Positions 28,649-31,426 of a DNA stretch of 38,992 nucleotides are shown piece by piece (the first letter of the stretch is position 1; every line of letters starts with the position of its first letter). The notes below the pieces were generated by a model. It was given only the letters and a program-made list of their open reading frames with translations, was not told the origin of the DNA and ran no database searches. The DNA lies in the IMG/VR virus record IMGVR_UViG_3300036760_000572, positions 1 to 38,992 of that record. One strand, written 5' to 3'. The translations under genes and the position numbers were made by a program. This DNA comes from a virus.

Positions 28649-30046
28649 CTATGACTCTCTCACCATCACGAACGGGCCGCTGTTCCCGTCCCTCGCGGCG
28701 TCCGCGGCGACGTCGACGCCGAAGGTCCAGGCGACGGCCTGCTGGCAGGTCTGCATCGCCGGTGGCACGCCCAGCACGTACTGGTGGCCGGTGGAGGGGC
28801 AGTCTACGACGACGACGCGCGCTTCGCGGTCCGGCATGTTGGGCATGGGGATGGCGAGTAGGCGCCGTGTGTTGCCCTGGCCATCGACGTCGCGGTGGAT
28901 GATCTTCGCTTCGCTCTCGGCCGCGAAGCGCTCGATGCCGACGCGCTCGAGCATGACGCGCGCGACCTCGGCGTTCGCTTCCTCGATGATCTCCATATGG
29001 GTGATCGACTGCGGCTGCTCGATCACGCGCGGCGGGACGCGGACGCCATGCCAGACGTGCAGCGACCAGCCGTCCGGGTACTGCAACGCGGGGCCGTCTT
29101 CGCGGTGCAGGCGGTTCGCGAACTCGCCTCGATCCGGCAGCGGTTCCAGCGCGAGCGTGCTGGGTCGCTCCGACACCCAACAGATCTTCTCGTGCGGGAA
29201 CGCCCAGCCGGCAGACCGTCCGAGCTCCCAAAGGCCAGCGAGCTTCTCCGTCTGGTGTTTCAGCCCGATGCGAGCGAAGAAGTCGTAGAAGCTGAGCCAT
29301 TCAGCGTCGTGTTGGCCATACACGCTGGCCCGGACGCTGTCCCGGACGCTGGCCCAGACGCTGTCCCGGACGCTGTCCCAGACGCTGTCCCGGACGCTGG
29401 CCCCGACGCTGTCCCGGACGCTGTCCCAAACGCTGTCCCGGACGCTGGCCCCGACGCTGTCCCGGACGCTGGCCCCGACGCTGTCCCAGACGTTGGCCCC
29501 GACGCTGTCCCGGACGCTGTCCCCGACGTTGGCCCGGACGCTGGCCCAGACGTTGGCCCCGACGTTGGCCCAGACGCTGTCCCGGACGCTGGCCCAGACG
29601 CTGTCCCAGACGCTGTCCCAGACGTTGGCCCCGACGCTGTCCCGGACGCTGTCCCGGACGCTGTCCCAGACGTTGGCCCCGACGCCGTTCCAAACGCTGT
29701 CCCGGACGCTGGCCTTCTTCGTGATCAGATCTAGGACGATCGAGCGCGTCAGCGCGAGGCTCATCGGCGAGCCACACCAAACGATCCGCTCGGGCGCCTT
29801 CTTCCCGCCGCATTCGTACATCAGGCGGATCGCCCGCTCGGCGGCGACGCGGTCGGCGGGGCGCGTGTCGAGGCCGGCGGCGATCCACTCATCGCGCACG
29901 ATGGGGATCAGCGCCTGCTGTTTCGCCGTCAGCCGTTGGATCTTGTGCGCGGCCGCGGCGAGTTCGCCGGTGGAGAGCACGCGACCGTCCGGCCCGACCT
30001 GGCCCTGGCCCTGGCTGTAGCCCTTCGCCTTCTTGTTAGTCGGCAA
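28649..30046 (-). CDS. DUF6745-like protein with long tetrapeptide-repeat array
   Basis: A 465-aa protein starting at TTG 30046 inside the preceding gene. Residues 1-110 are helical (EWIAAGLDTRPADRVAAERAI, then IVWCGSPMSLAL). Residues 112-242 are 32 tandem tetrapeptides of form [WRG]-[DA]-[SN]-V plus a partial unit, with one divergent WNGV copy. Residues 243-465 contain WLSFYDFFARIG and LHREDGPALQYPDGW followed by HGVRVPPRVIE, and a helix with EEANAEVARVMLERVG. This tail is the pattern I associate with the DUF6745 family. Function is unknown. The array may form a helical or solenoid spacer, and its length may vary between related phages. Confidence 0.82.
   Translation of the reverse strand: MPTNKKAKGYSQGQGQVGPDGRVLSTGELAAAAHKIQRLTAKQQALIPIVRDEWIAAGLDTRPADRVAAERAIRLMYECGGKKAPERIVWCGSPMSLALTRSIVLDLITKKASVRDSVWNGVGANVWDSVRDSVRDSVGANVWDSVWDSVWASVRDSVWANVGANVWASVRANVGDSVRDSVGANVWDSVGASVRDSVGASVRDSVWDSVRDSVGASVRDSVWDSVRDSVWASVRDSVRASVYGQHDAEWLSFYDFFARIGLKHQTEKLAGLWELGRSAGWAFPHEKICWVSERPSTLALEPLPDRGEFANRLHREDGPALQYPDGWSLHVWHGVRVPPRVIEQPQSITHMEIIEEANAEVARVMLERVGIERFAAESEAKIIHRDVDGQGNTRRLLAIPMPNMPDREARVVVVDCPSTGHQYVLGVPPAMQTCQQAVAWTFGVDVAADAARDGNSGPFVMVRES
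29321..29713 (-). repeat. 12-bp tandem repeat array (32 units)
   Basis: The array is 393 bp: 32 twelve-base units plus nine bases. On the coding strand each unit is NGG GMC ARC GTC, and variation is almost limited to one base in each of the first three codons: T, C or G; A or C; G or A. Units are in frame, so gain or loss of copies would keep the protein readable. All frames on both strands are open here, so other ORFs are artefacts. Confidence 0.95.
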
Positions 30047-30380
30047 CGTTCCGGATCTCCCCGCCGAGCGTATACTCGCGCTGAATCTTCACCTGGTACA
30101 CGCCGGGCTCGAGCACTTGCGGTCCGTGTTCCTCGTGCGTCAGGGTCGCGCCCTTGCCGGCCGCGTCGCCCTCGACCACGATGTAGCGCTGCTCGCCGGC
30201 GTGCCACATCGAGACCTTGTGCGGAGCGAGGATGCGGTGCGCGTGGCCGGTGACTTCGCCGTAGGCGAGAACGAGATCGGGCCGCGGCAGGTCCTGCCGC
30301 TTGGCGTTCATCGGCAACGTCGCGATCGGGAAGATCCCGACGTCGCCCTGGCGGATCATTTTGATTGGCTGCGGCTTCAT
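30036..30380 (-). CDS. Small conserved phage protein next to DUF6745-like gene
   Basis: A 114-aa protein starting at ATG 30380. The first part is IKMIRQGDVGIFPIATLP and the middle contains LAYGEVTGHAHRI. A RYIVVEG strand follows, and then HEEHGPQVLEPGVYQVKIQ with REYTLGGEIRNVAD at the end. The beta-rich arrangement with conserved His residues (GHAH, HEEH) is reminiscent of a small cupin-like fold. Such genes occur beside DUF6745-type genes in other genomes, to my knowledge. The stop lies 11 nt inside the next gene, indicating coupled translation. Confidence 0.78.
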   Translation of the reverse strand: MKPQPIKMIRQGDVGIFPIATLPMNAKRQDLPRPDLVLAYGEVTGHAHRILAPHKVSMWHAGEQRYIVVEGDAAGKGATLTHEEHGPQVLEPGVYQVKIQREYTLGGEIRNVAD

Positions 30381-31426
30381 CGTGTTGCTCCTGCTCCTTC
30401 CAAACTGCGTGAACTCCTAACCGGCATCTCGTCGTGCAAGCGGCCGTCGAGCCATCGCCCGCCACTCTTCGGTGTAGGCCCGCCCCATTGCTTGAAAAAG
30501 AAGGGCACGTCGGCGGCGGTGCATTGATCACGGAGTGAGCGAACCCACTCGTGCGGCATCGGCCGGAAGCCGTTGCCCGATTCACCGCCGACGATCACCC
30601 AATCGAGGAACGGCCCGCCGAGCTTGCGCGCGGCGGCCGCGACCTGAGCGAGAGCGCGCAGCTTTATAGGGTCGATGGTGCCGCAGACCGTGACATTCGC
30701 CGTCAACCACGCCCCGAGATCCACCGGCCCCAGTAGGGGCTCCGCGCTGATGAACCGCACGGCCGCCGGCGTCGCCAGCAGCAGCGGGATCCTCTCATCG
30801 GCGAAGTGCTGATTCTCGACCGACACGCCGAGCCAGACATTGGGCAGCGGCCAATGGGGCAGAAAGGTCTCTTCCTGAATGCCGTGCGACTCATGCCAAG
30901 CGGAGGCTCGATTCAGCGCCGTGGGCGACACCTTACCGAACAAGCTCGTGACCGCGCCGAGCATCCGCCATTGAACGTCCGTTCCTGGCTTCCAGCCCGT
31001 GCCGTCATTGTCAACGTGATAGTTGTTGCCTGGCTTCGGTCGCGTCATATAGGATCGCATTCGCTCCGGGCGCTTTGTCAGCACTTGAAACGTGTGCATC
31101 GGCGCGAGCGCCATCACCGCGAAGACGCGATCGATCAACTCGTCAGGCACGTCGTCGTGGAAGAGATCGCTCAGGCTGTTGACGAAGATGCGGCGGGGCC
31201 GCCTCCACCGCAGCGGTAGATCGAGGCGGTCCAGGTGCAGCTGCAGGCCGCCGCGCGTCGTCGACGCGTTGCCGACGCGAACAAACGGGCGCGGCTGGCC
31301 GGCCGCGCCGCGGAACGGCGGCGTCCTTTCGATGTAACAGTGGGCGCAGCCCGGCGAGACGCGCGTGCAGCCAGTGAGGACGTTCCACGTCGCATCCGTC
31401 CAGCCGATCTCGCTTTTGTCGCTCAT
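30377..31426 (-). CDS. Phage Gp37/Gp68-like protein (DUF5131), radical-SAM-like
   Basis: A 349-aa protein with the family opening IGWTDATWNVLTGCTRVSPG and cysteines C20, C27 and C30 (C-x6-C-x2-C). These sit at the N-terminal end of a likely TIM-barrel, as in radical SAM-like proteins. Further blocks are FVNSLSDLFHDDVPDELI, FQVLTKRPERM, NVWLGVSVENQ, RFISAEPLLG and DWVIVGGESG. The C-terminal block is PFFFKQWGG. Chemistry is not established for the family. The gene overlaps the upstream end of the 114-aa gene by 4 nt. A nucleic acid modification role would suit its neighbourhood. Confidence 0.9.
   Translation of the reverse strand: MSDKSEIGWTDATWNVLTGCTRVSPGCAHCYIERTPPFRGAAGQPRPFVRVGNASTTRGGLQLHLDRLDLPLRWRRPRRIFVNSLSDLFHDDVPDELIDRVFAVMALAPMHTFQVLTKRPERMRSYMTRPKPGNNYHVDNDGTGWKPGTDVQWRMLGAVTSLFGKVSPTALNRASAWHESHGIQEETFLPHWPLPNVWLGVSVENQHFADERIPLLLATPAAVRFISAEPLLGPVDLGAWLTANVTVCGTIDPIKLRALAQVAAAARKLGGPFLDWVIVGGESGNGFRPMPHEWVRSLRDQCTAADVPFFFKQWGGPTPKSGGRWLDGRLHDEMPVRSSRSLEGAGATR

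Follow-up and report, generated by a model that had tools for sequence, protein, structure and literature searches.

The nearest described phenomenon to the one reported here is found in Borgs, mobile elements whose proteins carry fast-evolving, in-frame amino-acid tandem repeats that formed independently in each genome (PMC9879509). Borg repeats are mostly perfect copies, fall into many unit types, and are almost devoid of tryptophan (PMC9879509). Further points of comparison are coding minisatellites and variable-number tandem-repeat (VNTR) proteins that evolve in concert, pentapeptide-repeat proteins, in which units of the form A(D/N)LXX build a quadrilateral beta-helix, and diversity-generating retroelements, which make protein segments variable by adenine mutagenesis.

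We describe here a phage gene in which an array of tetrapeptides is joined to a DUF6745 domain (PF20530). The Pfam model for this family describes the domain only, and the tetrapeptide array lies outside it. In the library of papers searched, none mentioned DUF6745, and a text search of it for six array motifs found them in no paper. We place the array among coding minisatellites that evolve in concert, within which its two-site alphabet is unusual.

The array gene and its phage

The window, by which we mean the whole stretch of DNA that was analysed (38,992 nucleotides), is IMG/VR virus record IMGVR_UViG_3300036760_000572. Genes for terminase subunits, a portal, a major head protein and a tape measure were found, as well as an integrase, a repressor-like gene and a RusA-like resolvase, and this gene content indicates a temperate siphophage. 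The array gene (28649-30046, minus strand) shares its strand with the structural genes and is placed between the RusA-like gene and the terminase, upstream of the terminase genes, a gene order from which we infer that it lies in the early or accessory part of the genome.

The array gene is an open frame with a TTG start, encoding 465 amino acids in three parts, all on the minus strand. The N-terminal domain (residues ~26-110; 29717-29971) is common to viral DUF6745 proteins with or without arrays. It is followed by a seed-like, half-matching unit, KASV (29705-29716), at the upstream edge of the array, and then by the array itself, 32 units of 12 bp (29321-29704; residues 115-242). The C-terminal ~205 residues, which start YGQHDAEWLSFYDFF (28706-29320), are a clear member of DUF6745: PF20530 matched the protein at 144.5 bits against a cut-off of 27 (E 3.4e-42; residues 235-447, profile positions 2-198 of 206), in agreement with the original prediction of a DUF6745-like protein. 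That prediction had also described 32 consecutive [WRG][DA][SN]V units spanning 29321-29713. The number of units and the start of the span hold, but only 31 units follow the pattern strictly, unit 2 being WNGV, and the span was a few bases too long.

At the DNA level the unit in the window array is NGG GMC ARC GTC, with three variable bases: base 1 is C in 13 units, T in 11 and G in 8; base 5 is A in 19 and C in 13; and base 8 is G in 26 and A in 6. The remaining bases are fixed, except in the WNGV unit (bases 4 and 7) and in three units at base 12. TRF scored the array at 486 (period 12) and 555 (period 24), compared with 65 or less for all other arrays in the window, which places the pattern well above chance. 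The units thus have the features of a coding minisatellite, being arranged head to tail in 32 in-frame copies of 12 bp, a multiple of three. The three variable residues had been thought to permute freely, and this proved incorrect, as D is never followed by N (residue 2-3 pairs DS 18, DN 0, AS 7, AN 6; Fisher p = 0.002). On the coding strand of the window array, and of most of its relatives, GGG recurs every 12 bases, and G-quadruplex formation or replication stalling could drive instability, although GGG cannot be essential, since arrays of the xSSL type lack it.

Overlapping the array gene by 11 bp is a companion gene of 114 amino acids (phrog_27831; 30036-30380, minus strand) with the motif GEVTGHAH...HEEH...QREY, and a DUF5131 (phage Gp37/Gp68-like) gene (30377-31426, minus strand) lies upstream of the array gene in one gene run. 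The DUF5131 gene matched the PADLOC candidate defence-associated models PDC-M41B and PDC-M30B. Companion homologues, which at many loci are upstream of the DUF6745 gene, were found no more than 4 kb away at 35 of 61 DUF6745-array loci, compared with none of the 17 loci of a second array family described below (counts that took in loci with enough upstream sequence and include some duplicate records), and it seems probable that the companion and the DUF6745 protein form a functional unit. Conserved histidines in the TGHAH and HEEH motifs of the companion suggest, as a guess, that it may bind metal. A defence or counter-defence role of the array gene is possible; in PADLOC-DB, neither this gene nor the companion matched any anti-phage defence model.

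Spread of the arrays and their alphabet

Searches for homologues of the DUF6745 part returned about 50 contigs from viruses and seven from bacteria or archaea, and in most of them a like array stands between N-terminal and DUF6745 domains of these same kinds. Of 46 genomes from the phylum of one host, only 1, the query genome itself, had DUF6745. Homologues without an array are present in phages (L006/L039, L051, L062, L064 and Microcystis phage LMM01) and on actinobacterial plasmids or megaplasmids (L198 and L199; Streptomyces, Nonomuraea), indicating that the array is dispensable for the DUF6745 domain. The array-free gene on Streptomyces fungicidicus plasmid p1 (L199) has an STM4015-family gene in its neighbourhood, which may hint at what the domain does in cells.

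Alternative unit types that retain W/R/G (xxQV, xxQL and xSSL) were found in the same slot. Among these were 46 units of [WRG][GD]QL in the Mycobacterium abscessus prophage prophiGD102-1, WAQV and GDQV units on a Nocardia farcinica plasmid, and units of [WGRE]SSL in Siphoviridae cta39025. A search of named phages for relatives of the prophage gene returned mostly matches to its downstream neighbours and no isolate-level pair of arrays. Matches to Halobaculum and Kineococcus plasmids were rejected as unrelated repeat sequences. Complete single-run arrays range from 7 to 60 units, and the array of L027 has ~150 or more. A wider alphabet is used in the low-GC arrays L027, L031 and L066; L027 (GC 0.37), the largest, admits E, V, A, M and K at position 1 and K, E and N at position 2, and has many block duplications.

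A scan for the array DNA pattern gave at least 120 stretches, among them a second array family (e.g. L144, L128, L148, L090 and L146) in which the N-terminal domain is of one of two kinds (MCxxFS.. or MKxYKLAxPDGWDFYTG..) and the C-terminal part spans ~65 residues (...LW..GLVPSFDG..WRLHSG). Proteins of this family had no Pfam match, and a search against named phages gave no match. The C-terminal part was rejected as a DUF6745 homologue: an hhalign probability of 67% was discarded because array residues remained in the alignments, and after trimming of these remnants the probability was 0.4%. As the two C-terminal parts are not detectably related, the array is carried by no fewer than two unrelated families of proteins. 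In all, 135 distinct arrays were collected from DUF6745 proteins and this one unrelated family.

Within each array 10 of the 12 bases are essentially fixed, including silent sites, and base 1 (W/R/G) and base 5 (D/A) are polymorphic. The fair test of the alphabet is a set of 45 arrays of at least 8 units that were found through their flanks or whole-protein similarity, blind to the unit pattern; silent variation is absent from 32 of these arrays, while W, R and G are all present at position 1 in 41, and D and A are both present at position 2 in 41. In the larger set of 135 arrays (2,573 units), which was obtained partly with a W/R/G-type DNA pattern, minor silent codons account for 81 of 10,292, and the letters are present at W:R:G 760:876:788 and D:A 1273:1187, with occasional E, V, M and S in some arrays. 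The frequencies of the letters differ among the 135 arrays beyond multinomial expectation, so that composition is not tightly fixed. An apparent association within units of R with D and of G with A (pooled z about 4) was gone when arrays were considered individually (48 v 50) and was not retained.

Near-equal letter frequencies, random order and the confinement of variation to two sites would also be produced by targeted mutagenesis, in which a diversity-generating retroelement or similar mutator writes random letters at bases 1 and 5. The arginine codons speak against it. AGG alone is used in 90 arrays, CGG alone in 31, and both together in only 2 of the 135, indicating that the letters are clonal: units receive them by copying rather than making them anew, and any mutator that randomises bases is thereby disfavoured. 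Base 1 thus has three letters per array and not four: T and G are accompanied by A or C, almost never by both, a pattern that is not the adenine substitution of a retroelement target. Moreover, the variation is not adenine-specific, and the closest pair of arrays, described below, is separated by unit-sized indels, not substitutions. None of the selected window ORFs that were scanned matched a reverse transcriptase. We consider targeted mutagenesis highly improbable.

The silent code of the whole array switches together between homologues, for example between GAC AGC GTC and GAT TCC GTG or GAC TCG GTT. Among homologue pairs with less than 70% protein identity, the unit DNA code is common to only ~4-13%. 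Serine codons are of the AGY type in the arrays of some phages and of the TCN type in others, and because single silent steps in every unit could not lead from one to the other, arrays were apparently re-founded. The simplest reading of these sequences is that each array started anew from a single unit and later recovered W/R/G and D/A. Silent third positions also track phage GC content (Spearman 0.49). In our view the recurrence of the same alphabet under changed silent codes is the strongest sign that selection acts on the protein. Both homogenisation of the unit at conserved silent positions and selection on the unit had been predicted from the window array, and both are supported by the relatives.

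These data also bear on whether the arrays might be near-neutral, a GGG-rich 12-mer expanding by itself in tolerant linkers, with W/R/G and D/A as harmless one-step neighbours. W, R and G at NGG, and D and A at GMC, do differ by single bases, the occasional E, V, M and S in some arrays are consistent with tolerance, and one copy (L052) has frame-breaking indels. Near-neutrality is harder to reconcile with bases 2 and 3 and the silent sites being almost invariant while bases 1 and 5 are polymorphic in 41 of 45 arrays, as neutral turnover would have lost the variation at bases 1 and 5 just as silent variation was lost, or with an alphabet that recurs under different codes and in unrelated proteins. 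We regard this explanation as quite unlikely.

Turnover and shuffling of units

Comparison of arrays with their flanks showed that, in relatives, unit number and order turn over more rapidly than the surrounding sequence. Two contigs from different metagenomes (L126 and L133) match at every base over 3,623 bp of flank, yet one array has 25 units and the other 24, the two being separated by one deletion of 2 units and one insertion of 1 unit. Similarly, L068 and L052/L087 are 100% identical over 2,851 bp of flank, with 7 units in the former and a run several times longer in the latter. This longer array (L052/L087; 3300048503_000030) has several frame-breaking indels, which are either a real frameshift or an assembly error. 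Two contigs with flanks 98.8% identical (L079 and L114) have no more unit order in common than shuffled arrays, and the order in a pair of 94.7% identity (L020 and L021) was also no better than shuffled (p 0.05-0.5). The nearest relative of the window phage (L002, 65% amino acid identity) breaks off inside the array, and the variation is seen in relatives only. Among these relatives the original prediction of variability was supported by homologue searches and comparison of unit order: unit number and order differ between close relatives, and copy number changes in frame between contigs with identical flanks.

We also considered whether metagenome assemblers could themselves have made the number and order of units. 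About 20 of 51 viral contigs (~40%) terminate in the array, several of them at both ends, and one array has frameshifts, as an artefact would predict; contig ends in the array are also expected if it is repetitive or polymorphic in the population. Contigs with both ends in or at the array (L061/L066, L043/L075, L022/L084, L054/L086, L095/L138 and L137/L171) are probably circular maps, nearly complete, whose opening point fell at the array. Against an artefact, contigs from different samples agree in unit order where they should. In a control pair from two samples (L120 and L152) 21 units are in identical order, indicating that assemblies do not invent order, and 23 shared units are in order in L126 and L133. 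Arrays are also present in isolate genomes (prophage prophiGD102-1 and the Nocardia farcinica plasmid), and frame and silent code are intact throughout nearly all arrays. An assembly origin of the pattern therefore has very little probability.

Within arrays the order of units is near random: neighbours are identical (lag-1) 0.95 times as often as in shuffled arrays, and 4-unit blocks recur at 2.7 times the expected rate, bearing in mind that long duplicated blocks are under-represented in assembled contigs, which leaves single-unit neighbours unaffected. In a simple simulation that compares order statistics only, tandem duplication and deletion mostly gave ratios of 1.2-2.5 for neighbour identity, a value that depends on block size (0.99 with a mean of 6 and few steps), and 3-14 for 4-unit blocks. 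For unequal exchange between different arrays the corresponding ranges were 0.75-0.95 and 1.2-2.4. As the observed lag-1 value lies below that of most duplication and deletion runs, exchange between arrays or non-local conversion is also needed, and the statistics are fitted best by exchange between the genomes of related phages, or else by non-local conversion over short tracts, with units now and then gained or lost. Slippage had been proposed as the source of copy-number change; units are indeed gained and lost in frame, but slippage alone predicts identical neighbours, which near-random order does not show. A conserved 2-unit period is not claimed, as the excess at lag 2 is weak (ratio 1.10) and absent in the second array family.

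It is conceivable that the arrays form a diversification system driven by recombination, such that near-random, exchangeable "words" of a six-unit alphabet (W/R/G x D/A), rebuilt time and again from phage to phage and present in unrelated proteins, would provide every phage population with many versions of a single protein surface, with no reverse transcriptase or mutator. We think this possible but unlikely.

Predicted structure and relation to known systems

With the family alignment, AlphaFold2 predicted the N-terminal and DUF6745 domains confidently (pLDDT mostly >90, in the N-terminal domain for residues ~41-100). The array of the DUF6745 protein was predicted to be helical at low confidence, with pLDDT of 43-58 in mid-array and 69-74 near the DUF6745 end. 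In the unrelated protein of the second family the array was likewise a low-confidence helix; taking the two predicted arrays together, pLDDT was mostly 43-60, and in both families the predicted helix continues from the helix that precedes it. Searches of PDB by fold and by sequence gave no match at E<=0.001. A solenoid, as in the original prediction, is possible but has no support in these models, and a helical rod seems the better guess. In a viral model library the best match was LMM01 gp174 (E 3e-19), and the significant matches consisted only of this protein and other uncultured-phage proteins, two of the four being annotated as DUF6745.

The main rival to the reading we favour is a helical spacer or rod of variable length that only sets distance or solubility between the flanking domains, with a composition selected to mix bulky, charged and small residues, order irrelevant, and shuffling a by-product of repetitive DNA. 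Random unit order, the broad range of lengths (7-60 units, ~150 in L027), the existence of homologues without an array, and a predicted helix that runs on from the preceding one in both families are all in keeping with a spacer, and an order without detectable information is as compatible with a spacer as with a variable surface. There is no obvious need in a spacer for one-third tryptophan, nor for the same three letters at position 1 in independently founded arrays, and on balance we find this explanation doubtful, if worth serious consideration.

The reading we favour, tentatively and with slightly less than even confidence, is that of a hypervariable coding minisatellite, homogenised by recombination, in which selection acts on the W/R/G x D/A alphabet and the array provides a phage protein of the early or accessory kind with a changeable surface. 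The minisatellite would join the N-terminal domain to the DUF6745 domain, these two being the constant parts, and its units would be shuffled mainly through unequal recombination or short-tract conversion among arrays, both between related phages and within one genome. Selection on the protein would keep every letter of the alphabet in play. The array may then be a helical rod and, more speculatively, its W/R/G x D/A pattern a changeable interaction surface for partners from the host or from rival phages. Such a phage-host or phage-phage interaction surface would explain both the kept alphabet and the fast turnover. Counting against this reading are the homologues that do without an array, the low confidence of the predicted array structure, the loosely fixed letter composition and the wider alphabet of low-GC arrays.

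If this favoured reading is true, the arrays are a simple means by which phages keep a protein hypervariable, one that is hidden by standard assembly, and they offer a first handle on DUF6745. They would also be a tractable case in which concerted evolution runs counter to balancing or diversifying selection: within one 12-base unit, silent sites are homogenised and two coding sites remain polymorphic.

The arrays resemble coding minisatellites and VNTR proteins evolving in concert in having an in-frame unit, copy-number change between near-identical genomes, and homogenised silent sites. They differ from them in that two sites per unit are polymorphic, in the 3x2 alphabet that is fixed across phages, and in a unit order that is near random rather than blocky. 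With pentapeptide-repeat proteins they share a short unit with one conserved aliphatic residue, but the period is four residues, not five, and the prediction is a low-confidence helix instead of a beta-solenoid; a Pfam search of the array protein gave no match to pentapeptide-repeat families. Diversity-generating retroelements would likewise give a phage a hypervariable protein segment, whereas the arrays vary by gain, loss and reshuffling of units with clonal codons and not by adenine mutagenesis. Compared with the repeats of Borgs, which come closest, the arrays are distinguished by one recurring unit type, by mixed rather than perfect units, and by tryptophan, which makes up ~30% of position 1.
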